DNA of 30,825 nt. Origin: a virus. Positions 914 to 18,700 of the stretch are shown piece by piece. Positions within the stretch are counted from its first letter, which is position 1; each line of letters starts with the position of its first letter. The notes below the pieces were generated by a model. That model was not told the DNA's origin and searched no databases. It was given only the letters and a program-made list of their open reading frames with translations. The position numbers and the translations under genes were made by a program. The stretch covers positions 1 to 30,825 of the IMG/VR virus record IMGVR_UViG_3300046655_000727, one strand, 5' to 3'.

Positions 914-1372
914 ATGGGAGTTTATAGCAGGACGTATACTACTAGACGAACCTCCATTGTTGAAGCTATCGTAGATAAGCTTAAAGAAATAGATGGTAAT
1001 GGAAATTTTCTCACTGATGTATTTAATAATGTACACCCTCGTTTAAAGTTTTGGGATGAAGTAACTGAGTTTCCGGCAATTCATGTAAATGCAGGAAATG
1101 AAACCCGCGAATATCAAGGAGGAGGTTATAGAGATCGATTCCTTACTGTAACTATTCGATGTTATGTTAATGAAGAAGATGCTACAATAGCTCTTGATAA
1201 ATTACTAGAAGATGTGGAAACAGTTTTAGATGCTAATAGTCAACTTATATATGCAGATAAAACTGGAGCTTCACAACAAACTCACCAAATTTCCATCGTC
1301 AGTATAGACACTGATGAAGGAGTACTAGAACCCCTAGGAGTAGGAGAAGTTCTTATAGAGGTTCGATATTAG
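914..1372 (+). CDS. Tail terminator protein (lambda gpU-like)
   Basis: A 152-residue protein of the size and layout of siphovirus tail terminators, which form a ring at the head-proximal end of the tail, stop tube growth and join the tail to the head. It has an N-terminal helix (SIVEAIVDKLKEIDGNG), a central pair of strands with FPAIHVNAGNETREY, a strand reading RFLTVTIRCYV, a helix with ALDKLLEDVETVLD, and a last strand ending GEVLIEVRY. That order is the alpha/beta fold of the gpU / HK97 gp10-like family. The start is one base after the previous stop and is preceded by GGAG. It lies directly before the tube gene, as in lambda. The call rests on fold pattern, size and order. No diagnostic active residue exists for this family. 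Confidence 0.75.
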   Translation: MGVYSRTYTTRRTSIVEAIVDKLKEIDGNGNFLTDVFNNVHPRLKFWDEVTEFPAIHVNAGNETREYQGGGYRDRFLTVTIRCYVNEEDATIALDKLLEDVETVLDANSQLIYADKTGASQQTHQISIVSIDTDEGVLEPLGVGEVLIEVRY

Positions 1373-1402
1373 AAAATACTGACACGAATCAAAGGGTTCA
1401 CG

Positions 1403-1421
1403 TTCAAGTCTTTTCAAGTCT
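1403..1421 (+). repeat. Nine-base direct repeat in the tube gene leader
   Basis: The 64-base gap before the tube gene holds TTCAAGTCT twice, at 1403-1411 and 1413-1421, ten bases apart. It is followed by AGGAG at 1425-1429, eight bases before the ATG. No -35/-10 pair or hairpin is evident in the gap. The spacing of one helical turn could mean a protein site, or chance in AT-rich DNA. Confidence 0.4.
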
Positions 1422-1436
1422 CATAGGAGAAACACT

Positions 1437-2663
1437 ATGGCTGCAAATTTGCAACTGAGTAGAAATACTCATGTATTCCTACAGAAAACACAGGCGGCGT
1501 ATTCAAGTCAAACTGCCGACTACCTGTGGCAGATTCCTGTTCTGGATGGATACTCTTTCTCACAGGCTGTCGCGACTTCAGAAATTACTCTGAATGAAAT
1601 GGCACGAGATTCTAACTTATCAACTCGTAGAGCACGAGCAATGTTTAATGATGCTCTTGAGCCCGCAGAGTGGTCTTTTACAACTTATATGCGCCCAAAT
1701 AATAACGGTACTTCAGTTGATGAATCTCTCTGGGCAAACATGCTCGGAGATGTTTACTATGATGGTTCAGACTGGCAAACAGTTTCTACTACCCCCAACG
1801 GTCCTGTTACTCGTACAGGTGCTTCACAAACCGTAAGTTTTGACACTGAAGATTCAAACTATGTACAAGTTGGTAGATTTAATCTATTCTTTGTTCTTGG
1901 TGCGTGCGGGGATACAGCAAATAGTTCTTATAGTCAGACAAATGGCCAAACTATTTATAGGCTTGCAGATTGTGTTGTAAATACTGCTGCAATTGAATTT
2001 GATATTGACGGTATTGCCCAAATTACTTGGAGTGGTTTCGGTACTCAAATCGAGCAGCTGGCCACTGCAAATATGTCTACTAACCTAACAACTACTGGTA
2101 TTAGCTCTACAAAGAACTTTATCAAGAATCGACTCACTCAGTTGACCGTAGTTCCTGGAGCTGTGGGCACTCCCGTTCGTAGTCAAGATACTGATGTAGC
2201 AAATGAATTTGATCTTCAGTACTATTTGACTCTGACTGGCGGAAGTATTTCTTTTGAAAATAACATTAGTTTCTTGACTCCGGAAGAGCTATGTAAAGTA
2301 AATATTCCTATTGGTCACGTTACGGGCACACGCAGTATTTCTGGCAGCTTTACTTGTTATTTGGACGACTCTCAGCTTCAGCCAGATGGAAATGCAGGCT
2401 CAACTTCTTCTAAGCTCTTTAAAGACTTGGTAGATGATGAAGCCCGTGGTGTTGTACAAAATGACTTTAACTTGGTGTTTGATGTTGGGGGTACCGCTGG
2501 CATCCCCCGTGTTCAGTTTAACTTTGCGAATGCTCACCTTGAGATTCCAAATCTTAATATTGAAGATGTTATTTCACTTGAGACTAGCTTCCACGCACTG
2601 CCCACTAGCTTGGATGGCGCAGACGAAGCAGTTATTACCTATGTTGGTCCAACCAGCTTATAA
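1437..2663 (+). CDS. Major tail tube protein (lambda gpV position)
   Basis: A 408-residue protein expected to polymerise as stacked rings forming the tail tube. It is almost all beta: alternating hydrophobic strands with Ser/Thr/Asn/Gly-rich turns, no signal peptide and no membrane segment. The C-terminal 150 residues have the tube-family pattern of a short strand (GSISFENNISFLTP), a segment rich in Asp/Glu, and a closing strand pair with NLNIEDVISLETSFHALP and DEAVITYVG. It is longer than lambda gpV (about 246), so probably carries an extra surface domain. An ideal AGGAG sits before the ATG. Arg codons are mainly CGN (10 of 14), unlike most neighbours, which fits a very abundant virion protein. 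An intrinsic terminator follows, isolating it from the chaperone genes. Identity is inferred from order, composition and expression signs. Confidence 0.8.
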   Translation: MAANLQLSRNTHVFLQKTQAAYSSQTADYLWQIPVLDGYSFSQAVATSEITLNEMARDSNLSTRRARAMFNDALEPAEWSFTTYMRPNNNGTSVDESLWANMLGDVYYDGSDWQTVSTTPNGPVTRTGASQTVSFDTEDSNYVQVGRFNLFFVLGACGDTANSSYSQTNGQTIYRLADCVVNTAAIEFDIDGIAQITWSGFGTQIEQLATANMSTNLTTTGISSTKNFIKNRLTQLTVVPGAVGTPVRSQDTDVANEFDLQYYLTLTGGSISFENNISFLTPEELCKVNIPIGHVTGTRSISGSFTCYLDDSQLQPDGNAGSTSSKLFKDLVDDEARGVVQNDFNLVFDVGGTAGIPRVQFNFANAHLEIPNLNIEDVISLETSFHALPTSLDGADEAVITYVGPTSL

Positions 2664-2677
2664 TAATCTTAATTGTC

Positions 2678-2700
2678 AGGGGCTTCGGCCCCTTTACCTT
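2678..2700 (+). terminator. Intrinsic terminator after the tube gene
   Basis: AGGGGC (2678-2683), loop TTCG, GCCCCT (2688-2693) form a perfect six-pair stem with the very stable cUUCGg tetraloop, followed by TTACCTTT. It begins 15 bases after the tube gene stop. The T tract is interrupted, so read-through is likely partial. Confidence 0.85.
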
Positions 2701-2743
2701 TCAAAAAATTTTTCTTGACTTTTTAATGCTTTTGTAATATACT
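2700..2743 (+). promoter_or_regulatory. Sigma-70 promoter P1 with A/T-rich upstream element
   Basis: TTGACT at 2715-2720 and TATACT at 2738-2743 are separated by exactly 17 bases. Ahead of the -35 lies TTCAAAAAAT followed by TTTTC, like an UP element. The 20 bases at 2700-2719 match those at promoter P2 (22465-22484) at 18 positions. It lies directly behind the terminator and 44 bases ahead of the chaperone gene start, so it probably drives the chaperone, tape measure and tail-tip genes. Confidence 0.8.
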
Positions 2744-2787
2744 TATATTTCAAAAATAAAAAATTCTTTTATACGAGGCTACAATAA

Positions 2788-3210
2788 ATGAGCGACAAAC
2801 CTATTTCTCTTTCGAGTCTTATGACTCCAAGTAAAACTGTAACTCTTGATTTTCCAGGCTACTCAGGACTTACTGTAGATGTAACTTACTTAGCTCGAGA
2901 GGAGCTGTTAAAACTTCGTAAGAAGTGTGTGAGTACTAAATTTAATCGCAAAACGCGACAACCCGAAGAAGAGCTAAATGAAGATATGTTCTTGGTCGAG
3001 TATGTAAAAGGAGTTATCAAAGGTTGGAAAGGCCTTAAATATCGATACCTAGAAGAGCTTCTTTTGGTAGATGTTTCTGAGCTAGACCCGGATGACGAAC
3101 TTCCCTTTACACAGGATAACGCAGAGCTTTTAATGAAAAACTCTGGAGATTTTGATACGTGGATTACCGAGGTTGTTGGTGACCTTGAAAATTTTACTGG
3201 GAACAAGTAG
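2788..3210 (+). CDS. Tail assembly chaperone, short form (lambda gpG-like)
   Basis: A 140-residue acidic protein, the same size class as lambda gpG. It lies between the tube gene and the tape measure, where siphophages encode chaperones that hold the tape measure and recruit tube subunits. It has a beta-type N-terminus (KTVTLDFPGYSGLTVDVTYL), then a helical stretch with LAREELLKLRKKC and FLVEYVKGVIKGWKGL. The C-terminus is acidic (DVSELDPDDELPFTQDNAELL). The start is preceded by GAGG. Its last 20 bases contain a -1 slippery heptamer, and the zero-frame stop TAG (3208-3210) sits inside a stem, so a fraction of ribosomes should make a longer G-T product. This short form is expected to be much the more abundant. 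Chaperones are lost before the virion matures. Confidence 0.85.
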   Translation: MSDKPISLSSLMTPSKTVTLDFPGYSGLTVDVTYLAREELLKLRKKCVSTKFNRKTRQPEEELNEDMFLVEYVKGVIKGWKGLKYRYLEELLLVDVSELDPDDELPFTQDNAELLMKNSGDFDTWITEVVGDLENFTGNK

Positions 3211-3229
3211 CTGAGATACGAAAGCTACT
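3189..3229 (+). promoter_or_regulatory. Programmed -1 frameshift signal (A AAT TTT plus stem)
   Basis: The heptamer AAATTTT (3189-3195) is read A AAT TTT in the chaperone frame and fits the X XXY YYZ rule, allowing both tRNAs to re-pair on AAA TTT. Ten bases downstream, AGTAGCT (3206-3212) pairs perfectly with AGCTACT (3223-3229), a seven-pair stem with a ten-base loop that holds the zero-frame TAG. The -1 frame is blocked upstream by TGA at 3186-3188 and open from 3189 to 3623. Confidence 0.85.
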
Positions 3230-3626
3230 AAAACGTTATGTAGAACAGAGAACATCTAATTTTGATCTAGACAAGTATCTTACAATTTGTGAACAGCTAG
3301 GCCAAGAACCGGACCCTGCCAAAATGCCGCTCGAATCTTCAGAATTTCCTGAAGAAGTTCAAGTGGCATTTTTTATATACTCACTATTTGCAGATAGATG
3401 GGAGGGTATGAACGGTACTTACTTGGGAAAAGATTGGACAAATGTTAAGTATTATTTTAAGGTCTACAAAGTTCAAGAGCCTGCAGTAGTTATTTATTTT
3501 ATGCATGTATATGATGAACTTGTAATTCAAAGTAGAATGTCACAAGCAGACACCCGACGTAAACAACAAGAAAGAAAAGCTAAAACAGGCGGCGGAAAAA
3601 ATTTCGCCCATAAGATTCAAGGCTAA
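3189..3626 (+). CDS. Frameshift extension of the tail chaperone (lambda T part of G-T)
   Basis: This -1 frame is not a separate gene. After slipping at 3189-3195 the ribosome continues at TAC (3195) and adds 143 residues to the first 136 of the chaperone, giving a fusion of about 279 residues, close to lambda G-T. The extension reads YWEQVAEIRKLLKRYVEQR, then a segment with EQLGQEPDPAKMPLE, then FPEEVQVAFFIYSLF and WEGMNGTYLGKDW, a pattern typical of siphophage chaperone extensions. It ends in a basic tail (TRRKQQERKAKTGGGKNF) likely to contact the tape measure. The methionine at 3324 lies inside this conserved stretch and lacks a ribosome site, so it is not a real start. The stop TAA overlaps the tape measure ATG (TAATG at 3624-3628), coupling their translation. 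Confidence 0.85.
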   Translation, partial: KFYWEQVAEIRKLLKRYVEQRTSNFDLDKYLTICEQLGQEPDPAKMPLESSEFPEEVQVAFFIYSLFADRWEGMNGTYLGKDWTNVKYYFKVYKVQEPAVVIYFMHVYDELVIQSRMSQADTRRKQQERKAKTGGGKNFAHKIQG

Positions 3627-6600
3627 TGGCTAAAAAAATACAAATAGATATTGAAGTCAATGGCAAAATGCAGAAGGCTACTGTTTCTGCAAAAAAGCTA
3701 AATAAAGCCCTACAGGATACTAGCGATAGTGCCCAACAAACAGATAGAAATATAAAGGGTACTGCACAAGCTTCTTCAAATGCCAGTAAAAACTTTTCAA
3801 AAATGTCTCAAGGCATGGGAGGTCTTGTAGGGGCTTATGCTTCTTTAGCTGCGTCTTTATTTGCTGTATCTGCCGCGTTTAATTTTCTAAAAAGAGCCGG
3901 CGAACTAAAATCCTTACAAGCAGGTCAAACAGCATATGCCAGTGCTACAGGTACAGCACTTAGAAGTTTGACTAATGATATTATTCAAGCTACGAATGCT
4001 CAGATCTCTTTTAGAGATGCTGCGCAAGCAGCCGCTATTGGTACTGCAGCAGGGCTTAGTGCAAATCAACTAAAAAGGCTAGGTAAAGCTGCAGCTGACG
4101 CCTCTCAAATTCTTGGCAGAGATGTAACAGATTCGTTTAATCGTTTGATACGCGGCGTTACAAAAGCCGAACCAGAACTTTTGGATGAATTAGGTATTAT
4201 TCTTCGACTAGAAAGAGCAACTACAGATTATGGATTAGCTATTGGAAAAACTGCAGATGAACTAACTCCCTTTGAAAGAAGTCAAGCAGTAGCAAACGAT
4301 GTGCTTACACAAGCAGAAGAAAAATATAGTAAAATTCTTGATGTTGTAGGAAGAAGTCCAAACCAGTATGCTCAATTAGGAAAAGCATTTGATGATCTTG
4401 TAATGAAAATTCAGAAGATCACAGACGCAGTTGCAGGTCCTTTGGCAAAAGTTTTACAAGATACTCCTGCTTTGGCAATTGCTTCTTTTCTTCTTTTATT
4501 AAGGGGCCCTTTAGCGGCTATGGGAGTAAGTTTTCAAGATATTGCAACAAACGCAAGAAAATCCGCAGATGCACAAATAAAAGCTTTACAAGATGTAACA
4601 GATCGAGCAAAAATAGCTACATTAAACGTAGGTAAGCTAAAGCAAGAATTTAAAGGTGCCGCGGGGAAGGCGTATGCACTAAATCCAAATAGTAAAGTAC
4701 TGGAACGTGCCTCAAAGGGCACAATGTCAAAAACAGATAGAGCAAACCTTAGAAAAGCTTTAGCATCCGCAGAGGCTCAGTATAAAAAACACGGAACAAT
4801 AGTAAATGGCATTTTTAAAGGAATGTCGATTCAAATGGTTACAGATGTTGCAGGTGCTTTCGCTCAAATGGAGCTAGCGGAACAAAATAAAGTTGCAAAC
4901 TCAAAAGTTGCAGCAACTAAAATAGAACTCTATTATGCTAAAGCTGCAACTGGTATTAAAGTATTCGGATCCGCGCTGGCTAGTTTCGGGGTAAGACTTT
5001 TAAATATTGTAGGTTGGATAGGTATTCTAGCTACTGGATACCAAATACTTAAAGGATTCTTTAACGATGATAAGCCTGAACAAAAACAAAATTCCTTACT
5101 TGACGTCCAAAGAGATAAGATTCAAAAACTAAATAAAGAGTTGCAGCACTTTGTAGAGATACAAAGAATTATGGCCGAGGGAACCACTGGCGTTAAAGGA
5201 TTCGGAGCAGTTGCAGGAGTTTTAGATAATTTAGATACAAATACTATGACTCAAGCTATTTCAGAATTCCGAAACTTAAATAGTATTCAACAACAAAATC
5301 TAGAGATTCAAAAAGAAATAGATAGAATTACTGCAAAGAATGCTGCTATGAGAAAACAAGATGCTTTATATAGTCAGGCAGGAAGAACCGGCAGAACAGA
5401 AATGTTACCCGCGGGAAGAGCTTCTGAACAAAGTTTAGAAGAAGTTCCAAAATTAATAGAAATTCCCGAAAGCGCAAAGGCTTCTTCGGAGCTTTTATTA
5501 AAAGTACGTGATTCTATAAAAGCAATTAAAGAAGAGACAGGGCAAACGTTAGGTCCTTTTGAAACTTTAGAAAATATGCTATCTAATCCGGAAAGTTTTT
5601 CTGAAAAACAAATTTTATCGGCAGTAGTTGCTGCCCAAGAATTGGGTAAGACAATAAGAGAGCTGCCTCGTCTTACTACAGATGCTTCTGCAGCCTTAAA
5701 AGGCTTTACTAACAGTATCGCTCCAAAATCTCAAGCACAACAAACTATAGATGCAATTCAAAAGCAACTTACTGCTATGAAAAAAATAAAAGATGCAGGA
5801 GGAGTGATTGATGAAAAAGAGTATAACAAACTAGCTCAGGCTCAAAAAGATATTGCAGACTTTAGAGATAGAGCACATAAGACAGCATTACGTCAGTTGG
5901 CAACACAGTTAAAGATTACAAATGAAGTTGTAGGAGAAAGTCAAGCTACTCGAGCCGTTAGAGACGCTCAAAATGCAATAGTTGAAAATTCTGATACACA
6001 ATTGGATATTCAAGCACAGATAGCAGATATTGAAGAAACAAAAAAAGCTATAACAGGACAATTAACTCCAGAAGATCGTAATCGGTTAGAGATCCTTCGT
6101 GCTCAATTAGCTGTTGAAGAAAAAATTGGAGGTATTTTGAACCAAAAACTAGCTCTTCAACAAGAGCTCAAGCCCCTTCGCGATTCACAAGTCGCTGCAA
6201 ATGTAGAACGACAACGTTTACAAAACTTACAACAACTAGTTAATTTAGAACAAAAGAAAATGGGGTATGTTAAAGAGCAGGCACAGGCTCTTGAGACAGT
6301 TTTGAATGCACGTTTTGATAGGGCACTTATGTCAGCTAGAAGTGCCGGGGGCCATATGGACCCGCGAAAAGAGCAGGCTGCAAAAATTAAACTAGAAGAG
6401 CATTTAGTAAAAATAAGAACAGCTCAAATTAATCGTGAGTTTAAAATGAAAATGACAACTCTTACGATGGAGGAAAAGAATTTAAAGATAAGAAATAAGC
6501 TAGCAAAAATACAATATCAGATTCAAATGAAAGATCTTGGGCAAAAGACAGACGCAGCTACTCTAGCATATTTTGACTCAATTGATAAGAGTATATCAGA

Positions 6601-8149
6601 AACAGCTCGTTTAGGTAGAGAAACTGCAGAAATAACACGAAATACAGCTCTTGAAACAGTAGACTTAACATTAGATAAGTTGAAGCAAGCTGCAGGAGAT
6701 ATGTCCTTTAAGGGTCAGATGGCAAAAACTTTTGAAGAGAGTTTTAGAGACGGGTTAAATACTGCGCTTTCTGGTTTAATTTCTGGAGACATGACTTTTA
6801 AAGAAGCAATGATGTCTTTTATAAATACAATTGCAGATGCAGCAATCAAAAGACTACAAAATATGCTAGTAGATTCCATAATGGAAGCAATATTCGGGCC
6901 TGAAGAAGATATTGCTGAGAAAATGGAAAGAATTCTTAAAGAAGAACAAATGTCTTCAAAAGTTGGAGAAACTATAGAAGAGGGCGGTACTTCGATGGCT
7001 AAAAAACTAGATGACGTTTTAAGCCAGGAAATTCAAACTAGAGTTAAGGTTGAATGTTGCGAAGAATCAGGCGGCGGAACCGGTGTAGAAGACCTCGCAA
7101 CACTAGCTATGGGCGCAATAGCTGTAGGAGGGTTAGTTAAAGGTGGTGGTGAATATGATATGGGGAAGGTGGGTGAAGTAGTTGCAACAATGGGCTCTCA
7201 AACTGCTGAGTGGTTTACTAATGCAGCAGGCATGGAAGAAATGGTAATAAAAGCAAGTCCTGGCTCTATAACTTTTTCGGAAAAAATAGCCGCAGCAGTC
7301 GATGGAGTACCTCTTTTAGGAGATTTAATGTATAAGCTTACCGGAGGCGATAGTGGAGGAGGATTTTTACAAACTCTCGGCAAGGTATTTGGCGCTCCTT
7401 TAGGACTGTTAGGAGGCTTATTCGGGGGCAAAGGGTTTGCCGATGGAACCTCTTTTGCTAGTATGGCAACTCCTACAGGTATTCCTTTCGGCCCGGCAGC
7501 CGGAGGAGAGGGAGGAGCAGGAATTCTCTCACAAATAACTGGTATGTTTTCAAAGTTTCTATATGGTACTGGGGGTGATGGTGTAGGACTTGCAGGAGGT
7601 CTCTTAGGGTTTATTTCAGACATTTTCGGAGGGTCAGAAGCTTCGTCGAAGGTTGGTGCATTTATAATGAAACTTTTATCTCCAATTATTGCACCCATTG
7701 CAGCACTTTTCGGAGGCGGTTTTGGAGGGCCAGGAGGGCCAGGAGCGGGAGCAGGATTAATAGATGCTGTTTTTGGTCCAGTTGCTGGAATGTTTGGACT
7801 TGCTAGATATGGCGGTATTATGAAGCCTCCTAAAGGTTATAGAACAGGCGGAATAGCTACTGGCTCTGCTGCAGGATACCCCGCACTATTACACGGTAAA
7901 GAAGCAGTAGTTCCTCTCCCTCATGGAAATAAAATTCCTGTAGATTTAAAAGGAGCAGGAGGCCAACAAAATAATATTGGCGTAACTGTAAATATTGCAT
8001 CAGATGGCTCTTCTAGTATAAGCCAAGATAATGCACAAGCAGAGCAGGAGGGCAAATCAATGGCGGCAGCAATTTCTGCAGCAGTTACACAAGAGCTTAT
8101 AAAGCAGAGAAGAGCAGGCGGAATGTTAAGTCCGTATGGAGCAGCGTAA
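3626..8149 (+). CDS. Tape measure protein (lambda gpH-like)
   Basis: At 1507 residues this is one of the two longest genes of the main tail-assembly block. It sets tail length by spanning the tube lumen. At about 0.15 nm per residue the tail would be near 225 nm (inference). It begins with a basic, helix-rich region and has hydrophobic segments near residues 66-84, 281-295 and 456-475. The centre (about 480-1060) is long coiled coil rich in Gln, Glu, Lys and Ala. The C-terminal 400 residues switch to Gly-rich hydrophobic stretches (for example PLGLLGGLFGGKGF) and end with RYGGIM, RTGGIATG and HGKEAVVPLPHG, a motif often seen at the C-terminus of siphophage tape measures. I see no lysozyme, peptidase or transglycosylase motif. 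The start overlaps the chaperone stop, and the stop is followed at once by the ATG of the collagen-like gene. Confidence 0.95.
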   Translation: MAKKIQIDIEVNGKMQKATVSAKKLNKALQDTSDSAQQTDRNIKGTAQASSNASKNFSKMSQGMGGLVGAYASLAASLFAVSAAFNFLKRAGELKSLQAGQTAYASATGTALRSLTNDIIQATNAQISFRDAAQAAAIGTAAGLSANQLKRLGKAAADASQILGRDVTDSFNRLIRGVTKAEPELLDELGIILRLERATTDYGLAIGKTADELTPFERSQAVANDVLTQAEEKYSKILDVVGRSPNQYAQLGKAFDDLVMKIQKITDAVAGPLAKVLQDTPALAIASFLLLLRGPLAAMGVSFQDIATNARKSADAQIKALQDVTDRAKIATLNVGKLKQEFKGAAGKAYALNPNSKVLERASKGTMSKTDRANLRKALASAEAQYKKHGTIVNGIFKGMSIQMVTDVAGAFAQMELAEQNKVANSKVAATKIELYYAKAATGIKVFGSALASFGVRLLNIVGWIGILATGYQILKGFFNDDKPEQKQNSLLDVQRDKIQKLNKELQHFVEIQRIMAEGTTGVKGFGAVAGVLDNLDTNTMTQAISEFRNLNSIQQQNLEIQKEIDRITAKNAAMRKQDALYSQAGRTGRTEMLPAGRASEQSLEEVPKLIEIPESAKASSELLLKVRDSIKAIKEETGQTLGPFETLENMLSNPESFSEKQILSAVVAAQELGKTIRELPRLTTDASAALKGFTNSIAPKSQAQQTIDAIQKQLTAMKKIKDAGGVIDEKEYNKLAQAQKDIADFRDRAHKTALRQLATQLKITNEVVGESQATRAVRDAQNAIVENSDTQLDIQAQIADIEETKKAITGQLTPEDRNRLEILRAQLAVEEKIGGILNQKLALQQELKPLRDSQVAANVERQRLQNLQQLVNLEQKKMGYVKEQAQALETVLNARFDRALMSARSAGGHMDPRKEQAAKIKLEEHLVKIRTAQINREFKMKMTTLTMEEKNLKIRNKLAKIQYQIQMKDLGQKTDAATLAYFDSIDKSISETARLGRETAEITRNTALETVDLTLDKLKQAAGDMSFKGQMAKTFEESFRDGLNTALSGLISGDMTFKEAMMSFINTIADAAIKRLQNMLVDSIMEAIFGPEEDIAEKMERILKEEQMSSKVGETIEEGGTSMAKKLDDVLSQEIQTRVKVECCEESGGGTGVEDLATLAMGAIAVGGLVKGGGEYDMGKVGEVVATMGSQTAEWFTNAAGMEEMVIKASPGSITFSEKIAAAVDGVPLLGDLMYKLTGGDSGGGFLQTLGKVFGAPLGLLGGLFGGKGFADGTSFASMATPTGIPFGPAAGGEGGAGILSQITGMFSKFLYGTGGDGVGLAGGLLGFISDIFGGSEASSKVGAFIMKLLSPIIAPIAALFGGGFGGPGGPGAGAGLIDAVFGPVAGMFGLARYGGIMKPPKGYRTGGIATGSAAGYPALLHGKEAVVPLPHGNKIPVDLKGAGGQQNNIGVTVNIASDGSSSISQDNAQAEQEGKSMAAAISAAVTQELIKQRRAGGMLSPYGAA

Positions 8150-11100
8150 ATGTCAACAACAGTATCAACAACAGCTCCTATTAGTCCTAATAATGGAGAT
8201 CTTTGGTTTGACTCAGTAAATCTTAGACTCTTTGTATATTATAATGACGGTAGTAGTGCTCAATGGGTAATAACAGGACCTACTGGCGTATCAGGACCCG
8301 CTGGAAGTACAGGCTCTCAAGGTAGTAGTGGACCTCAAGGACCGCAAGGACCACAAGGAGCCACGGGCCCTGCTGGCCCCTCTGGAACAACAGGACCTCA
8401 AGGCAACACTGGAGCAGTAGGCCCTCAAGGAGCTGACGGACCCGCTGGACCCGCAGGAAGTGGGGGCCCTCAAGGTCCCCAGGGCAGTACAGGTGCTACA
8501 GGATCAGCAGGACCCGCAGGAGCTACTGGACCTCAAGGCCCTACAGGAGATGATGGACCCGCAGGACCTCAAGGACCTATAGGACCTATAGGACCCAACG
8601 GTGCCGTGGGACCCTCCGGAACAAACGGTAATGATGGACCAGCAGGACCAATTGGAGCGACAGGGCCTCAAGGCTCTATAGGACTAACTGGGCCTGCCGG
8701 ACCTCAAGGACCCCAAGGGGATGACGGACCTCAAGGACCTCAAGGACCTACCGGCCAAACCGGACCACAAGGACCTACGGGGCCTGCTGGCGACGATGGA
8801 AGCACGGGCCCGCAAGGTCCTCCGGGGAATAGTGGAGTTGCGGGACAAACAGGGGCACAAGGACCTATAGGACTAACTGGACCTCAAGGACCCCAAGGAC
8901 CTCAAGGACCCACCGGCCAAACCGGCCCTGCTGGAGCCGCCGGAGCTGATGGAACTGCTGGAGTTGATGGAAATACAGGACCTCAAGGTCCTAGAGGACC
9001 TCAAGGATTTGATGGACCTGCCGGACCTACAGGCGCTGCTGGCGCAGATGGAAATACAGGCCCGCAAGGTCCTGCCGGGCCCGCTGGAGCTACTGGGCCT
9101 GCTGGACCTACTGGGCCTGCTGGACCGGAAGGAGATGAGGGCCCACAAGGAGCTACTGGACCTCAAGGCCCTGTAGGAGCAAATGGACCTGCCGGACCTG
9201 CCGGACCTACAGGCGCTGCTGGCGCAGACGGTGCAGATGGTGCAGACGGTGCTCAGGGAGGAATTGGTCCTCAAGGACCCGCAGGACAAACAGGCCCCGC
9301 AGGCCCTACTGGAGCGGGAGGAGAAAGAGGATTTCCAGGACAGACAGGTTCTACTGGACCTGCGGGACCCGCTGGAAATACAGGTGCACAAGGACCTGCA
9401 GGTACTGATGGGGATGGATTTACTGGAGGAACATACAATTCTTCTACCGGTGTTATAACATTTACATCTGATGATGGAATTGGATTTAGTACTGGAGATG
9501 TTCGAGGAGCTCAAGGAGCTCAAGGAGCTCAAGGGCCCGCAGGTACAAATGGTCAGGCTGGTAATACAGGCCCACAAGGGGCTACTGGAGCTACAGGTCA
9601 AACAGGACCTCAAGGACCTACAGGAGATGGATTTACTGGAGGAGCTTACAGTTCTTCTACAGGTATTGTAACATTTAGCTCTAATGATGGAATTGGTTTT
9701 ACTACAGGAGATTTAAGAGGTGATGGGAATAGAGGTATTTCTTCCGCAACTGTAAACTCAAGTAATGATTTAATTCTTTCACTGGCCGATAATACAAATA
9801 TTAACGCAGGAAGTGTTGTTGGACCAACTGGACCCCAAGGTTTACAAGGAGTAACAGGTCAAACTGGAGCTACAGGTCAAACAGGCCCCCAAGGTATTAC
9901 AGGACCTCAAGGACCCCAAGGTCCTTCTGGTCTTACAGGAGATGGTTTTAATGGAGGAACCTATAATTCTTCCACAGGTATAGTTACTTTTACTTCTGCA
10001 GACGGAATAGGATTTAGCACCAGTGATTTACGAGGCGATGGAAATAGAGGTATTTCTTCAGCAACTATTGACGGAAACGATGATTTAATACTTACACTTG
10101 CGGATAGCTCAACTATAAATGCTGGAAATGCTACAGGTCCTCAAGGCCCACAAGGACTCGCAGGTACGGATGGAGATGGCTGGAGTGGCGGAACATATGA
10201 TGGCGCTACAGGGGTAGTTACTTTTACGTCATCAGACGGGCTTCAATTTACTACAGGAGATATAAGAGGCACAGACGGAGCAGACGGTGCAGATGGTGCT
10301 ACCGGGGCTACTGGCGCCGCAGAGTTGAGATTTGATACTGAGCCAAATAGCACATCTACAGCATTTAAATTTGACGGAGCAGGCTTTACTTCTTCTACAG
10401 ATAATCCTACTTTAAATCTACAAAAAGGTTTAACATATCATTTTGATATGTTCAATGCAGGTGCAGCTGTAAATAGTACAAATTGGACTGCTACTGTAAG
10501 CCACACGTCGCCTAACTTACATATACCACAATTGTTTGGAGAAGCTACAGGAATAAGTCACGGCCAGAATCCGAACGCGAATTTGGTGCCGCCAACTGGA
10601 TCAGCTACATTTGTTGACGTTGGTAGCACAGGTATACCAACGTCATACTTTGGGTCGGGCCCTGCCACTAGTACGGGTATTCAATGCAGAACCGTTTTCG
10701 GATTTGGTAACGCCTCAGGCGCTCATCATCGAGTGGGCTGGGCCTACTCGAATGAATTTACTGTACCTGCAGGTACAGTATTAAATTTTGATGTGTATGT
10801 TAATCCAGCCCCGGGCGGATCCAGCACCCGCGACTTTGACCCAGTTAGTATGATAAGTCTTGTAGACTATACAAATTCAGCGTATACAATCTTATATAAT
10901 GCAGAAAGTAGTAGTAGTGCGTACAATACAGCTGGAGCTAAAAGTTTTACAATTGCTCTTGCTGGCACTTACCGTATAGTGGTAGCAAGCGGAGGAAAGC
11001 GCCACCTGCCCAACGGGTCTAGTGGAACACTCACCACTTTTGAGATAGTTCTATCAAATCTTGTATTGTCAAATGGTCACCCTCTTTGGCTTCAAACTTC

Positions 11101-12355
11101 TTCCGGAGCTTATGACGCAAATCATACTTTAGGAGCTTCAGATGGAGTAACGAACAATGGTGCGTCTTCGGGAACTTTGACTTATGAAGTCCCAATGGAT
11201 GCTCCTGATACTGTGTACTACGTTTGCCAAAATCATTCCGGAATGGCCGGTACAGTGTATACTACTGATGTAGCACAGGGGGGTGTTGTATTAGATAATT
11301 TGGCGCCTGCTCTAAAATTTGATGTAACAGCTAATGGAACAGCTAATCTATTTGAATTCCAAGGTTCAGGATTTAATAGTACTACAACCAATCCGACTTT
11401 ATATTTACAAAAAGGTTTAAAATACGAAATTGATTTATTTCAAGCTTTATTAACAACAGATTCTACTGGTTTCTCCGTAGATACCGAGTTAACAACAGAT
11501 ACGCCCTTGGGAGTCGACTTTAGCGCTTACGGTGTAGAAGCTAGTGATAATACTGGATGGCAGGCATACAGCGAGTACACATCTAGCGGATATAGTTCTC
11601 CTAATTATATTACAGGATTTAAGAATATTACCCTAAGTGGTGTTACGTACCCTTCTGTAGAAATTGTTACCGCAGCTGTTAGTGCCAGCACTCATCAGAA
11701 GGTTGTTAGAAAAGGCTGGGCGTATTCAAATGAGTTTATAGTAGATGCTGGAATAATATTAAGCCTATATATAAATGGCGCGGGCGGCGCGTCAGGTCTA
11801 TATTTTGATAATGAAGTTAAGGTATTGTTACATGACTTTAATAGCAGCACTACCACTGTCATGTTCAATGCGGCAAGCACTGACGGGTATCAATCATTTA
11901 CTTTAACAGGAGGAAGATATAGAATATTTGCTTTCACCGGGGCGAAAAAAGCATCTGGTGCTCCTGGAGGTTCGCAAACTACGCAGATTTTTTCTACTAG
12001 CCTAGCAGACGTAAAGTTATCAAATGGTCATCCTATTTGGTTTCAGACTTCTTCCGGTGCGTATAATGCGGCCAATGTACTAACAGCCTCTGACGGTGTA
12101 ACAAATAATGGTGCAGAAAATGGAAGCCTAATTTATGAAGTTCCTATGGATGCTCCAGATACTCTTTATTATGTATCTGAAAATAGTGCTACAATGACAG
12201 GCAAAATTTATACAACTGCTCCTACTGCCCACGTGACCAATTATACCACTACAGAAAGAAATGTTCTTACTGCAGTAAATGGTGATTTAGTTTATAATTC
12301 AACCACACATAAGTTCCAAGGATACGCAAACGGAACTTGGGTAGATTTACACTAA
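8150..12355 (+). CDS. Collagen-like fibre protein with two cupredoxin-like C-terminal copies
   Basis: A 1401-residue fibre protein. Residues 9-42 form a small module with [14 protein letters not shown] and QWV. Residues 43-419 are a nearly unbroken Gly-X-Y run, rich in GPQ, GPA and GAT, expected to form a trimeric collagen helix. Residues 420-710 hold four beta modules (GDGF-GGTY-TG-V-F) separated by short collagen stretches. Residues 725-1040 and 1055-1357 are duplicated domains, each ending with a cupredoxin-like strand set. The first has ligand-type residues H977, C1026, H1029 and M1032. The second keeps H1294 and M1349 but has Ser at 1343 and 1346. The C-terminus repeats a Trp module ([15 protein letters not shown]). 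It follows the tape measure with no gap and sits inside the tail-tip operon, so it is probably a tail appendage involved in adhesion. Prolines are unlikely to be hydroxylated. The exact virion site is unknown. Confidence 0.85.
8276..9412 (+). repeat. Collagen-coding nine-base repeat tract
   Basis: About 1.1 kb of Gly-X-Y codons dominated by GGACCTCAAGGACCT-type units. The near-identical nine-base units make this tract prone to slippage and recombination, and triplet number may vary between isolates. Several long open frames on the opposite strand here are a by-product of this composition. Confidence 0.9.
9413..10275 (+). repeat. Four related beta modules in the collagen-like fibre
   Basis: Four copies of a module of about 33 residues begin near 9413, 9626, 9938 and 10168. 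The consensus is GDGF-GG-Y, then S-TG-V-F-S, then DG--F-TGD-RG. Copies two and three continue with [10 protein letters not shown] and a strand pair ending in INAG. Each is followed by a short collagen run. They probably act as trimer-fold knots along the shaft (inference). Confidence 0.8.
10322..12220 (+). repeat. Duplicated cupredoxin-like domain, each copy with a large insertion
   Basis: Copy 1 (10322-11269) and copy 2 (11312-12220) share order and many residues: NPTL-LQKGL-Y near the start, KGWAYSNEF or VGWAYSNEF in the middle, then [32 protein letters not shown] and YYV. The start and end of each copy look like one cupredoxin-type domain, split by about 190-205 residues of inserted beta sequence. 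Confidence 0.75.
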
Positions 12356-12372
12356 CCTAATAGGAGCTATAA

Positions 12373-12912
12373 ATGTCATATGATTTTCCAAATAACCCAA
12401 GTAACGGAGATTCCGTTACATTTAATGGAGTTACTTATGTTTATAATTCTTCTATTCCTGCTTGGACTGTTGACGCAGGCAGCTATGGTCAATCGGGTAG
12501 CTCTTACGGAAATAAATTCGTAATGGTAATTCCGCAAGACGCACTAGCAACAGGAACTCCTGCGGCAGAAACATTTATAACTTTTGATAGAGGGTTTGGA
12601 CGTAGCGTTAAGCATCGAGTTTTAACTGCTCAATTTGGAGACGGATACGATCAAACTCTTAACGATGGAGTTAATATAAAAAATGATAGTTTTACAGCAA
12701 CTTTTAAAAATAGAGTCGCTTCTGAAATTAATCTTATTTCAGACTTTTTAGACTTGCGTTCCGCAAAAGAATTTGAAATACGAGTACCAAATAGAACTGG
12801 TATAGAAATTATGTATGTAAGACCTAAAAGCTATACTATTACATATGACTATGACCAATATCACACTTTGAATGCTCAACTAGCTAGAATTTATACTCCT
12901 AGAACTACTTAA
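12373..12912 (+). CDS. Minor tail protein (lambda gpM-like)
   Basis: A 179-residue protein. Residues from about 65 onward match the phage minor tail M pattern: FDRGFGRSVKHRVLTAQFGDGYDQ, then a helix (EINLISDFLDLRSAKEF), then a closing strand set with SYTITYDYDQYHTLNAQL. The FGDGYDQ run is the strongest sign of the family. M proteins connect the tube end to the tip. The first 35 residues are an added beta module (PSNGDSVTFNGVTYVYN, then W) of the same kind as in the fibres. The start has AGGAG nine bases upstream. It ends one base before the next gene, in the M-L-K-I-J order of lambda. Confidence 0.8.
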   Translation: MSYDFPNNPSNGDSVTFNGVTYVYNSSIPAWTVDAGSYGQSGSSYGNKFVMVIPQDALATGTPAAETFITFDRGFGRSVKHRVLTAQFGDGYDQTLNDGVNIKNDSFTATFKNRVASEINLISDFLDLRSAKEFEIRVPNRTGIEIMYVRPKSYTITYDYDQYHTLNAQLARIYTPRTT

Positions 12913-12913
12913 T

Positions 12914-14758
12914 ATGGCTATTTTTAATTACTATCTTGAAGTTGATGATGTACCCGCAAATACTTATGGGTATCATCCTCCTATTGCGGATGCTTCCTCT
13001 AACTATACCGTAATTATAAAAACTGGAGATACTGTAAATATTCGTACAGTATATACAGGTTCAAATACTACGGATGCTGGTGAAATAAGGTATATTGCAG
13101 CACCGAATAATGATACCGGACTAAATGATCCCGATGCAACAGGATCTCCGGGGTTAGACACAACTTGGACGCTTACTGCCACTGATAATACCGATTATTA
13201 TGCTAGGTGGTTTTGGTACACTGAAGTTAAGCCTGGACTTACATCACCTATAATTCCGCACGCCCAGTTGTCCGCTAGACTTTTAATTCTTCCTGACGCC
13301 TTTGGATTCACAGGCCTACCTAGTTTTATAGGTCCCGGAGGAGTAGAAGATATAGAAATAACAATGCCGGAGGATTTGGAGCCCTTCTTAGACGGTACTT
13401 ATAATACTGGTGACTATGACGGCCCTGTAGGAGGCCCAGAAAAGTTTTATTGGAAAATTACTACAGATGCAAATGCAACTCAATTAGCTCCTGTTGGTTC
13501 TTTTGAACGCAGAAATGGAATTCTAACTGGTCCTAAAAATGGCACTACAATTAATATCCGACCTAGCCAGAGTTGCCCTCTTGCAACCTACTATCTTAGC
13601 TTATACCACTTTAATACAACACCTCAATTTGTAAATGGGTCTGCTACTCCTTCTACAGCGGGAGCGGATTGTTTAATTCAGACATCCTCATTTACAGTAG
13701 CTGTAGACCCTTATATTGCTATAAGGCAATCTCAGCAGCAGTCAATTGATGATGCTTTAATAGAATTATTCGAAGTAACACTCCCAAGTGGTAGTATTTT
13801 GTACGTACATAATGGACTTGACTACGATGCTGGAACAATTGGTGAAAATATTTATTTTCCAAATGAGCTTGGAAATACTTTAAATGAATATTTAGCCTTT
13901 CCAATTGAAATTACAGGAATATCACAGACCTCTCAAGGGTCTAGTAATCGTCCTTCACTAAGAATGGCAAATATACCTATGCTAGCAGGGGGAAGGGGAA
14001 ATAATGGAAACGGAGTAGAAGATGAACAAACAATTTATAATATTCTTCAAACTGAAGGTCTTTTTACTTCGGATGATTTAGTTAATACTAAAGTAGTTTA
14101 TAGAAGTACTCTTTTTAAACATACATACAGAGTAGGGGATACTCCTCAAATACCTACAGAATTCCCTAAGGGTACTTACTTCATAGAAAAAGTGAGCCAA
14201 GAAGACAATATATTTGCCAACTATGAACTTGTAAGCCCTGCAGATATGGAGGGGATTACAATTCCTGCGAGAGTTGCAGTTGGAAAATATTGTGCTTGGG
14301 AGTACCAAGGGCTTCTTTATGGTAGAGGAGGTTGTCCTGTTCCTGCAAATGCTTTTAGTCTTTGGATTGATGAGAACGATAGATTAATTGCAACTAGTGC
14401 TGCATCTAGCGGAATTTCAACTTGGGCTTCCGCTACAACTTATGAGAGCGGGGTAACAAATGGAACAGGTATTGGAGACAAAGTAAGAAGGGTAAACCCT
14501 AACACTAATGGTTGGCAATTTTATGAGTGTGTTATTACAAATAGTGGTAGAGAGCCAGAAAAATATCCTACATATTGGAAGCGTTTAGATGTTTGTGGTA
14601 AAAAGTTAAGTTCTTGTAAGGTTAGATTTCAAACAAGACATAGTGCAGTACATAATACAGTTGCAGCAGGTAGTCTAATACCGGAGGATGAAACGCATAG
14701 AAATTCTGCAGAACCTTTACCTTTTGGAGGCTTTCCAGGGTCTCAAAAGTTTAGATGA
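12914..14758 (+). CDS. Tail tip protein L homologue with a long N-terminal extension
   Basis: A 614-residue protein whose last 345 residues match lambda gpL. It has the entry QSIDDALIELFEVTL, a central GTYFIEKVSQEDNIFANYEL strand set, and the C-terminus CGKKLSSCKVRF followed by LPFGGFPGSQKF. Four cysteines fit the [4Fe-4S] ligands known for gpL: C460, C474, C561 and C568. gpL helps form the tip hub and is about 232 residues, so the first 265 residues here are extra. That extension is beta-rich with Asp/Asn/Gly/Thr turns and may be one or two Ig-like surface domains. I cannot name it. The stop overlaps the next start (ATGA at 14755-14758). Confidence 0.85.
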   Translation: MAIFNYYLEVDDVPANTYGYHPPIADASSNYTVIIKTGDTVNIRTVYTGSNTTDAGEIRYIAAPNNDTGLNDPDATGSPGLDTTWTLTATDNTDYYARWFWYTEVKPGLTSPIIPHAQLSARLLILPDAFGFTGLPSFIGPGGVEDIEITMPEDLEPFLDGTYNTGDYDGPVGGPEKFYWKITTDANATQLAPVGSFERRNGILTGPKNGTTINIRPSQSCPLATYYLSLYHFNTTPQFVNGSATPSTAGADCLIQTSSFTVAVDPYIAIRQSQQQSIDDALIELFEVTLPSGSILYVHNGLDYDAGTIGENIYFPNELGNTLNEYLAFPIEITGISQTSQGSSNRPSLRMANIPMLAGGRGNNGNGVEDEQTIYNILQTEGLFTSDDLVNTKVVYRSTLFKHTYRVGDTPQIPTEFPKGTYFIEKVSQEDNIFANYELVSPADMEGITIPARVAVGKYCAWEYQGLLYGRGGCPVPANAFSLWIDENDRLIATSAASSGISTWASATTYESGVTNGTGIGDKVRRVNPNTNGWQFYECVITNSGREPEKYPTYWKRLDVCGKKLSSCKVRFQTRHSAVHNTVAAGSLIPEDETHRNSAEPLPFGGFPGSQKFR

Positions 14759-15078
14759 AACCTATTAAGAAACATTTTGAAGATTGGGCACCAAAAGAAG
14801 CGTGTGGCGTTTTTATAGATAATTTTACATTTTTAGGGTGTAAAAATATTTCTTCAGAAGATAATGTTTTTTGCTTTTGTCCTGAAGAGTATTTTAATAT
14901 TTTACGACAATATGAAATAGAAGGAATTGTTCATAGCCATGTTAATGAATCAAATAGTCCTTCAGAAGCTGATATAAATACGTGTAATGCAATGAGTATA
15001 CCTTACTACATATATTCTTACCCAACAATGGAACTAAATGTAGTTTTACCAAAATTAACTATAGGAGTTAAAAAATGA
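14755..15078 (+). CDS. JAMM-type tail tip peptidase (N-terminal half of lambda gpK)
   Basis: A 107-residue protein with a complete JAMM/MPN+ zinc site. E15 lies in KEACGVF, and the motif HSHVNESNSPSEAD gives H60, H62, S70 and D73 in exact H-x-H-x7-S-x2-D spacing. These residues would bind one zinc and activate water for isopeptide or peptide cleavage. Lambda gpK is about 199 residues and joins this domain to an NlpC/P60 wall hydrolase. Here the protein stops after the JAMM domain, and no NlpC/P60 gene follows. It is joined to the L gene by ATGA and to the next gene by ATGA at 15075-15078, so its amount is tied to theirs. The role is probably tip maturation; the substrate is unknown. Confidence 0.85.
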   Translation: MKPIKKHFEDWAPKEACGVFIDNFTFLGCKNISSEDNVFCFCPEEYFNILRQYEIEGIVHSHVNESNSPSEADINTCNAMSIPYYIYSYPTMELNVVLPKLTIGVKK

Positions 15079-15752
15079 GAAGAAAAGTAGTCTTTGAAGG
15101 AGAATTAGGCGAAAAATTTGGAAAAGAAACTTATATAGATGTAGCCTCTTTCGGAGATGTTATTAGATGTTTTTCTGCAAATTTTGATAACTTCAAACAA
15201 TATTTATTAGATTGTGATAAAAGACAGATTGCTTTTATATGTAAAGTAAATAATGTTGCTATTAGTGAAAAAGAACTTCCTTTACGATATGGGGAAGGAG
15301 ATATGGTTATAACTCCAGTACCTGCAGGCGCGGTTCTGGGCAAGTTTTTTAAAGGGGTCGTAAAAGCAATAACTGGAATAGTTTTAGTTGTTGTTGGAGC
15401 GATGACTGGTAATTGGACGTTAGTGATACAAGGGGGACTGATGGCTTTTTCAGGTATTGCCGAGCATTTAGCGCCTGACCCCCTTGGAGATCCTTCAGAT
15501 CCAGATCCCGACTACTTATACTCAGGAACAGCTCAACTAGTATTAGAAACTGATCCTATTCCTGTTTGCTATGGTAGAATGAGAGTTCCAGCTAAAGCAA
15601 TAAGTTTTGATATACGTGCAAATACTGCAGGAATTTCTGCAAATGCTGCATCCTCCGATAATTTAAAAGGTGCAAAAGGTGGAACGTCTAGAAATGCCAG
15701 CATGGGCAAGTATACTGCAGCAATCGCTGCTGTTACAGAGATTAGCGCGTAA
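15075..15752 (+). CDS. Tail assembly protein I homologue
   Basis: A 225-residue protein matching lambda gpI by position and layout. It has an N-terminal beta-grasp-like part (RRKVVFEGELGEKFG to YGEGDMVITPVPAG), then a hydrophobic stretch of about 35 residues (residues 90-128, with ITGIVLVVVGAMTGNW). The family segment DPDYLYSGTAQLVLETDPIP and CYGRMRVPAKAISFDI follows. The tail is Ala/Ser/Gly-rich. gpI is needed for tip assembly and is thought to interact with K and J. Arginine codons are AGA at seven of nine sites, the normal style of this region. Its stop overlaps the J start (TAATG at 15750-15754). Confidence 0.8.
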   Translation: MRRKVVFEGELGEKFGKETYIDVASFGDVIRCFSANFDNFKQYLLDCDKRQIAFICKVNNVAISEKELPLRYGEGDMVITPVPAGAVLGKFFKGVVKAITGIVLVVVGAMTGNWTLVIQGGLMAFSGIAEHLAPDPLGDPSDPDPDYLYSGTAQLVLETDPIPVCYGRMRVPAKAISFDIRANTAGISANAASSDNLKGAKGGTSRNASMGKYTAAIAAVTEISA

Positions 15753-18700
15753 TGGGGACACTTAACAAACTATCGAGACTTTTTCTTTATACTCCAGATA
15801 ATACTGCGATAGGTACCCTTGTGGGCGGAGAGTATCAAAATGTATCTTATACTGATTTAGTTAGTGAGGGGCCGATTTGGGGCTTGGTAGATGGGGCACA
15901 TTCTGTTTATTTTGATGATAATCCTGCGGAAGAAGGTAACTATACAGGATTCAAGCCTAAAAGAATAAATGCAAAAGTTACTTTTACTGGAAGTAGTACA
16001 ACAGGCACTTTTGATGTTGATACAAAATTACCCGTAGATTTTAGCTTGGGGGAAGGTAGGGAACTTGTTACAGCCCCTCATACAGTTTTTAATGTTACAA
16101 TAACCTCAAAGACAAAAACGGACGGAGGATTTGAGTTTGAAGTTGAGACAAATAATAGTACCCCCGCCCCCTTTAATTTTACTTCGGCAGTATTTGATAG
16201 TACTTCGTCTAAAGACTTTGACAGAATCGTTGCTTTAACTCTTTTATTTCCTAATGGGGGGATTAAAAGAGTAAGTTTACAAGGGAGTCTATCTACTGTT
16301 AATACCAGCACAGCAAATTTTATTGGATCTTTAAATGGAGTATCCTCAGCAGTTTTTGACGATATTATTGTAGGCACACTTAATAATGCAAGTAATACAA
16401 CTGGATATATTACAGTTATTGAGCACCGAAAAATTAATTCTATCAATGTAGCACAACGTGAAGTTGTAGTTGATGGGTCTAATCCTCCTGCACAATCTTC
16501 TCTTTTTTGGGTAACTGATGCAGTAACTTTTTCAGCAGCAGTTACAACGGGGACTAATGTAGATATAGGTTTAAGCGCTAACTCTAATATTGGAAAAATT
16601 GATGATCTAATGGTTCAAGAGAATTTTGGGACTGTTGATCAGTATCCTTTACCGCGTATTCAAAATGTAGGAGGTTCCGCAGCAGTTGTTGGCGCTTCTG
16701 GATCTACCCCCATAAAAATGTTTGATTATAGAGAGATGAGTAATCTACGCAGCGGTCATGTAGGCTTAGTTCATCAACCTATTCAGCCTACGCATTTAGC
16801 TCCAAAAGAAGGGGAAATAGTAGATTATGATGCTGAGACTGATCCAGCACCAAAAAATTTCGTCCATGGCGCCTTTGGGCTCCAAAGTGTTACTCAAGTA
16901 CGTCAAGCGGATACAATACAATTTGATATAGTTTATAATCAAGGGTTAATATATTTTGGAGGAAATGGAACTCCGAATTACTATCATATGACAGCAATGT
17001 ATGACGTAATTTTAGAGTTATATACAAGTGCGGGAACTTTAGCCATAATAAATATATACGATAATCCTGCTCTCGTACATAGAGGAAAAAGACAGGGACC
17101 TCTTGCATTTACGCATGAAATTGATATTAGTCAATATAGAACAAAATTTGGAGACTTTACAGGTTTTCAACTTTTCATTTATAGATTTACTCGGCACAAA
17201 GGGGCCACTATGCATGCCGACGGAACTAGAGCAAATAAAGACACGGAATACTGGAATGTTTTAGCTGAATCAAGTATTACTAACTTGGGGGCAACTTTTC
17301 AGGATAAATTCACATATCCAAATTCTGCTTTAGTAAATGTAGTATTTTCGTCTCGTCAATTTAAAACTGCTCCTAAAAGAAGTTATGATATACGAGGAAG
17401 ATTACTCAAAGTTCCTCAAACATATACTCCCAGAGAATATTCTGATACTGGAATAGCAAAATATCAGGGTTTTTGGGACGGTACTTTTATTGATAATGTT
17501 TATACAGACAATCCTGCTTGGATATTTTATGATATAATAACAAATAATAGATATGGAGCAGGAACTTGGGTTGACTCTGCTTTAATGGATAAATACTCTC
17601 TTTACAGAATTGCAAAATATTGTGATGATTTAGTTCCTGCAAGTGAGGAAACTAATGCAACACTATTTCAAGTAGACGAATTTTATGAAATAAAAACTTT
17701 ATCATCGCAAACTCAATGGAACGACATGGCAAGAACTACAGGAGTAACTTATTCTGTAGGCGATTTAGTACGAGTTTTAGAACCTGGGCCTTCAGGAAGT
17801 CTTGCAACAGGAGTCCGTTATGAGCCTAGATTTAGAATGAATCTATTTCTTACAAAGCCTGAAGCTGTATATAAAGTTTTGAAAGATATAGCAAGTGCAT
17901 TTACTTCTATCTTATATTGGATGGATGGCCAACTAACTTTAATTCAAGATCAACCTTCAACTTCCGTGCATACTTTTTCAAAAAGTAATGTTATAGAAGG
18001 AAGATTTGAGTATCAAACAACTTCTGCAAAATTACGTCCAAATCAGTATATTGTTTATTATAATGATCCTACAAGTAACTATGAAAGAGTTCCAGTTATG
18101 TATGAAGATCCTGTTGCTATTGCAAAAAATGGCAAAGTAATAACTAAAAGTGCTGTAGCTTTTGGGTGTACCTCAGAAAGTCAAGCAATACGATATGCAA
18201 AATGGAAATTATGGACTGCTCAAAATCAAAAAGAAATTATTGTATTTCAGACAGGACTACAAGGTAAATTTGTTAGACCAGGAGATATAATAGGAGTTCA
18301 AGATAGGGATCGACAAAATGTAACATATAGTGGGCGAGTAAGCACTTCTACATTAAGTACTTTAACATTCGACAGACAAGTTAATTTCAATGGTAATTCT
18401 AGTTATATTTTAAATGTAATGTTTAGTAGACCTGCAGCAGTATATGTTGGATATGAGCCTGTAACGGTAAATGGGGCTACTTATTCAAAAGGTGAGTACA
18501 TTTCTGAGGCTTTTATTCGGACCAGTGGAGGTGCATACGTTCTTTCAAATCTAGACACAGAAGAAAAAGCATCAAATGCTTTTAAAGATACTTCTAGTAA
18601 TGAGCTTTTACCAATACTTTGGAAAAAATATACGCATGTTAAGCAGTATGAAATAGTTAATCCTACTTCGGCAGGGACATTTCTACTTGCAGATGTAGTT

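Follow-up and report, generated by a model that had tools for sequence, protein, structure and literature searches.

A phage tail fibre with two split cupredoxin-like domains, one with a predicted type 1 copper site and one with a degenerate site

The virus DNA analysed here (IMG/VR record IMGVR_UViG_3300046655_000727, 30,825 nt; the whole stretch is referred to as the window) encodes a collagen-like tail fibre with two related domain copies, of which the first has the residues expected of a type 1 copper site and the second has lost part of them. The question raised by this locus is whether the two copies adopt a cupredoxin fold in which one of them would hold a copper ion, or whether the ligands are a relic in a purely structural fibre module. 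The fibre reading frame (8150–12355, + strand, 1401 amino acids) is open throughout, and is flanked by the tape measure gene on one side and by lambda-like minor tail genes on the other. The order of the tail cluster is a T5-like tail terminator and major tail protein, chaperones, tape measure (3626–8149), fibre, lambda-like minor tail genes, and a J-like protein. With T5-like terminator and major tail protein genes beside lambda-like L, K, I, and J-like genes, the region 914–20311 is a mosaic tail cluster. The fibre is organized as a collagen-like shaft followed by copy 1, copy 2, and a short tip (Table 1). Between the collagen blocks (residues 421–735; positions 9410–10354), a module ([33 protein letters not shown]) occurs four times, and is found also in relatives of the fibre. 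A second fibre-like reading frame (28039–30825) runs off the contig end; two tandem modules in it (30375–30530 and 30537–30680) share 51% and 38% identity, respectively, with the N-terminus of the fibre encoded from position 8150.

The two copies share 41% sequence identity (BLASTP, E = 6e-64). All eight residues singled out in an earlier note on this DNA, i.e., H977, C1026, H1029, and M1032 in copy 1, and H1294, S1343, S1346, and M1349 in copy 2, are exactly where it had placed them. Type 1 ligands follow the order H…C..H..M (two His, one Cys, and an axial Met or Gln), and this order is present in copy 1 but not in copy 2. The proposal that copy 1 carries a full type 1 copper ligand set with a short, amicyanin-type C-x2-H-x2-M loop is supported, as is a pseudo-site in copy 2, where S1343 and S1346 replace the Cys and His. 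The fibre is poor in cysteine, with just two Cys residues, and the C-x2-H-x2-M pattern is expected by chance 0.00013 times in the protein. Because contig L004 (IMGVR_UViG_3300046425_000674) encodes a copy 1 identical to that of the window and a copy 2 with the same HSSM state, sequencing error is unlikely.

Table 1. Features of the tail fibre gene, in window coordinates
Feature	Position	Strand	Evidence or remark
Collagen-like tail fibre ORF, 1401 aa	8150..12355	+	Pfam Collagen 3.9e-62; PHROG tail fiber families
Collagen-like (GXX) shaft, aa 43-724, with four interspersed 'GDGFTGGTY...' modules	8276..10321	+	
Copy 1, aa 725-1040: split cupredoxin-like domain and insert	10322..11269	+	
Copy 1, N-terminal half of cupredoxin domain, aa 733-772	10346..10465	+	Masked HMM positions 7-46, E 0.0004-0.0005
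Copy 1, inserted beta-sandwich, aa ~773-971; confidently modelled part about aa 812-974	10466..11062	+	AF2 pLDDT about 60-86
Copy 1, C-terminal half of cupredoxin domain, aa 972-1039	11063..11266	+	Masked HMM positions 41-104, E 2e-18
H977 (CAC), first predicted copper ligand	11078..11080	+	Codon start 11078; aligned with rusticyanin ligand His 'GHSF'
C1026-x2-H1029-x2-M1032 (TGC, CAT, ATG), predicted copper-ligand loop	11225..11245	+	Codon starts 11225, 11234, 11243; Cys/Met aligned with nitrite reductase, plastocyanin, and rusticyanin ligands
Copy 2, aa 1055-1357: split architecture as in copy 1, ligand site degenerate	11312..12220	+	
Copy 2, insert, aa ~1096-1290	11435..12019	+	
H1294, kept in copy 2	12029..12031	+	Codon start 12029
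S1343 (TCT), S1346 (AGT), M1349 (ATG) in copy 2; Ser in place of Cys and second His	12176..12196	+	Codon starts 12176, 12185, 12194
C-terminal tip ([35 protein letters not shown])	12221..12355	+	Relatives show at least three interchangeable tips, of which this is one

In related loci, the domain occurs in a compact form of ~100 residues, e.g., between collagen blocks in locus L008. The AF2 model of this compact homologue (L008:5902–6207), calculated from an alignment of 58 sequences taken from the fetched viral and genome loci only, has eight strands, a pLDDT of 97.9, and a pTM of 0.89. When the model was compared with the PDB using Foldseek, the first 50 matches were all cupredoxins, with probabilities of 0.98–1.00 and modest TM-scores (0.43–0.63); these include AcoP (9e-5) and rusticyanin (1.9e-4), as well as plastocyanin, amicyanin, CuA, and nitrite reductase. 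The model and the structural search thus support the cupredoxin-like fold suggested earlier, with the window copies joined to the compact family by a hidden Markov model (HMM) in which the ligand columns are masked. Unmasked profiles of the compact family match nitrite reductase, plastocyanin, rusticyanin, amicyanin, auracyanin, and azurin, and in the alignments the ligand Cys and Met line up, as does the first His in the case of rusticyanin. With the ligand columns masked, the compact-family profile finds no cupredoxin in the PDB. Since the ligand motif drives them, the sequence-profile and family matches do not constitute independent evidence; homology to the cupredoxins rests mainly on the predicted fold, and what the sequences add is the type 1 motif, correct in order and context. 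A Pfam scan of the window copies returned no copper family, and no match to Copper-bind (PF00127). Among the compact relatives, 26 of 64 match Copper-bind at E ≤ 1 (best 4e-6), and 27 of 64 give weak matches to the amicyanin model TIGR02657 (best 6.8e-5). The loop in copy 1 has the C-x2-H-x2-M form of amicyanin, but we do not file the domain as an amicyanin. A match of the compact domain to the phycobilisome linker Glr2806 (1.5e-4) was rejected as a chance result, as it covers a stretch without the metal loop, and has per-stretch E-values of at least 45.

The assumption that the units of 315 residues are single cupredoxin domains is not borne out, since an inserted sandwich domain makes up two thirds of each. 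An HMM built from the compact domains, with the four ligand columns masked, was run against all fetched loci, and matches each window copy in two pieces that flank the insert; the pieces in copy 2 match the same model segments as those in copy 1 (7–46 and 41–104). Each copy is a cupredoxin domain of ~100 residues, interrupted, at the point that immediately precedes the first ligand His, by an insert of ~200 residues. It is by the match of these two halves to the compact family that the window copies may be counted as cupredoxin-like. In the model of the compact homologue, the first His lies between the strands formed by residues 29–35 and 41–44, which places the entry of the insert at the loop leading into the metal site. 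The AF2 model of copy 1, for which only 14 sequences were available, shows the insert as a β-sandwich, while the cupredoxin halves have pLDDT values below 50; a single-sequence PDB search with copy 1 gave only chance matches to antibodies. The fold matches of the insert (Foldseek) are weak, and mostly to domains resembling carbohydrate-binding modules (CBMs) and to other jelly-roll domains; CBM61 is matched with a probability of 0.99, but with an E-value of only 4.8e-3 and TM-scores of 0.25/0.46. Searches with the insert gave no CBM family in Pfam and no PDB profile match, and its match to Pfam PPC (0.0026) falls below the cut-off.

The compact domain was detected by tblastn in 302 of 50,697 phage records, nearly all of them cyanophages. 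By name, 217 are Synechococcus, 54 Cyanophage, and 21 Prochlorococcus phages, and the list includes a few marine, Pelagibacter, and Actinomycetia phages. The phage genes that contain the domain encode gp9 connectors, tail fibres, gp7, and other baseplate or virion proteins, and HCHM domains are present in the tails of P-SSM2 and Syn33. In Syn33, the reading frame from position 3220 of L011, a baseplate wedge subunit beside gp9, has a divergent GHP…CKVHRYM motif, which suggests a second, more distant domain of cupredoxin-like kind in the same baseplate. At least 547 IMG/VR stretches encode a relative of the domain; the split form is rare, with 13 loci in a dedicated scan and a few more. A Foldseek search of viral models shows that the fold is shared by cyanophage proteins and small pithovirus- or marseillevirus-like proteins, and three small "beta-sandwich" proteins of the latter kind in BFVD (A0A481Z6J5, A0A481Z7Q7, and A0A481YVH3) match the cupredoxin model. 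The domain is also present in 12 bacterial loci, where the N-termini, as judged by eye, are mostly signal-peptide- or lipoprotein-like. Ordinary copper proteins belong to the same secreted or lipoprotein compartment.

A total of 121 distinct domains, on average ~40% identical to each other, passed the masked model, and their ligand states are HCHM in 112, HSSM in two, QSSM in two, and QATM, EATM, FAVM, HCHQ, and NCHM in one each; the patterns used to scan viral contigs contained GHP or Cys, so that full sites are over-represented in these numbers, and the degenerate share is not an estimate of natural frequency. The conservation of H-C-H-M among homologues, which the earlier note had left to be checked, is thus high, and together with the number of phage records that have the domain it does not agree with the view that such a site would be unusual for a phage. 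The Cys and the second His are both present in 114 of the 121 domains and both absent in seven, and a half-lost pair was never seen, even though, starting from a His codon, most of the changes seen at the His position take two or more base substitutions. Such joint loss is as expected of a metal site being given up, and would correspond to just two to five loss events; a Fisher value for the association ignores the relatedness among the domains. A tree of the window's group, with the ligand columns dropped, requires three changes of state, and a family-wide tree (59 columns) requires five, both trees being poorly resolved. In cyanophage S-B05, the change from H-C-H to F-A-V is an unrelated loss, clearly separate from the window's group. 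The Met residue is kept in all seven degenerate copies, and its conservation alone therefore does not indicate a ligand. As for the HCHQ state, Gln is known to occur as an axial ligand in place of Met (PMC4059628). In an acidobacterial, lipoprotein-like relative (L106:7998–8291), Gln replaces the axial Met, as in stellacyanin-type copper sites. The NCHM state in S-H9-2 is probably a one-residue shift in the alignment (sequence ATHALAF), and the IDDR domain of L061, which passed a first masked model but failed the criteria of the second, was left out of the count.

Based on these results, the explanation that we favour, and consider reasonably probable as a whole, is that the fibre head would comprise two cupredoxin-fold modules, each with a CBM-like β-sandwich of ~200 residues at the metal-holding side. 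Copy 1 would provide a complete mononuclear type 1 site, most likely occupied by one copper ion; copper is the likely metal considering the predicted fold, the ligand order, and the conservation. Phage tails are put together in the host cytoplasm, which contains very little free copper, and the ion would therefore be taken up after lysis, once the particle has been released. The role of the metal would most likely be structural, i.e., it would lock both the site and the point where the inserted domain is anchored, and thereby stiffen the module, with the outward sandwich insert contacting the host surface. Copy 2 would have the same fold as copy 1, and having lost the Cys/His pair, may do the same job as a metal-free module.

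A different occupant of the site in copy 1 would be zinc, or some other ion, loaded in the host cytoplasm in a purely structural role, with copper never serving as the physiological ligand. Zinc is available in the cytoplasm during tail assembly, where copper is not; a Cys/His/His/Met site can hold zinc, copper proteins expressed in E. coli pick up zinc, and the joint loss of Cys and His would fit any metal. However, a Met that is either invariant or replaced by Gln is the pattern of type 1 copper sites, and structural zinc sites usually prefer further Cys, His, or Asp residues, which makes a zinc site unlikely.

The relatives of the fibre have a bearing on whether any metal is bound. Three distinct two-copy fibres of the split type (window, L006, and L095) have one full and one degenerate copy each, in the order full–degenerate in the window, and degenerate–full in L006 and L095. 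In single-copy fibres, the copy is full in L005 and L007, and degenerate in L098–L100; one degenerate copy is visible in L101–L103, where the fibres are cut by the contig ends. Both the copies and the tips appear to be interchangeable among relatives. Pairwise dN/dS values are 0.18–0.36 for degenerate copies, which argues that these are maintained as working modules and are not decaying, and the values for full copies are similar (0.33–0.49). Since degenerate-only fibres (L098–L103) exist under purifying selection, metal is not needed for a working fibre or for the fold. This, and the persistence of Met where the site is broken, would also fit a robust fibre scaffold whose ligands are an inherited relic, with no metal in the particles. 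A relic should however lose its residues one by one, and against this stand the domains that keep all four ligands at low mutual identity, and a Cys/His pair that is kept or lost as a unit; we regard a relic of this kind as quite unlikely. The earlier suggestion of a structural relic does not suit copy 1, the ligand set of which is conserved family-wide, while it does describe copy 2 and its relatives. Finally, a copper site used for host recognition or as a redox switch, e.g., in contact with a copper-dependent or electron-transfer protein at the host surface, would agree with the position of the insert next to the metal site, with the occurrence of the domain in host-facing tail proteins of cyanophages, and with the proposal that iron-bearing fibres exploit metal receptors (PMC11705849), but is highly improbable since no partner or receptor is known, and metal-free fibres exist.

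The fibre domain shares with type 1 cupredoxins (rusticyanin, AcoP, plastocyanin, and amicyanin) the predicted eight-stranded fold and the His…Cys-x2-His-x2-Met order, and its ligand loop is as short as that of amicyanin. Unlike these proteins, it is part of a virion structural protein, has a 200-residue insert before the first ligand, and contains a predicted site; at the sequence level, the resemblance can be detected only by way of the ligand motif. A further comparison is with a contractile-tail baseplate protein, where the C-terminal ~100 residues represent the compact form of the domain with H-C-H-M, but this protein has no insert and a single copy, in contrast to the collagen-shafted fibre in the window. 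Phage fibres that bear iron are already known, and as in the "Ferrojan/Trojan Horse" proposal for the HxH motifs of T4 gp37, the metal is held near the fibre tip (PMC11705849). In T4 gp37, HxH pairs in a trimer hold the iron, whereas the site in the window fibre lies within one domain, and the 1401-residue protein contains no HxH motif. Cyanophages are also known to encode a cupredoxin as an auxiliary metabolic gene, i.e., plastocyanin (petE; PMC3037559), but this is a separate small protein proposed to act in host electron transport, and not a virion domain. A further paper (PMC8115048) concerns a viral NirK enzyme, and not a tail cupredoxin. In the open-access literature, we found no account of a cupredoxin in the tail proteins of phages, nor of a type 1 copper-like site there. 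Neither the fold nor the metal motif is new, and it is at the level of a variant that the insertion before the first ligand and the pairing of a full with a degenerate copy appear new.

The domain is a common but little-described building block of the tails of marine cyanobacterial viruses. A more far-reaching proposal, which we find conceivable but doubtful, is that functional type 1 copper centres are a regular component of marine phage tails, where they take up copper from the surroundings once the host has lysed and form a counterpart to the fibres that bear iron. In the window's group, such a centre would govern the insert at its rim, which would bind the host, and the second, metal-free copy would be its partner. 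Copper binding by copy 1 and its relatives would mean that a conserved site of the blue-copper type is built into many cyanophage virions, also in the gp9 baseplate protein, and would link phage tails to marine copper chemistry. Direct tests of this would be easy, i.e., by colour, by metal content, and by the effect of copper chelation on adsorption, and fibres that are otherwise alike but have either a full site or one that has lost both residues would form a natural series, with ready controls for the role of the metal.
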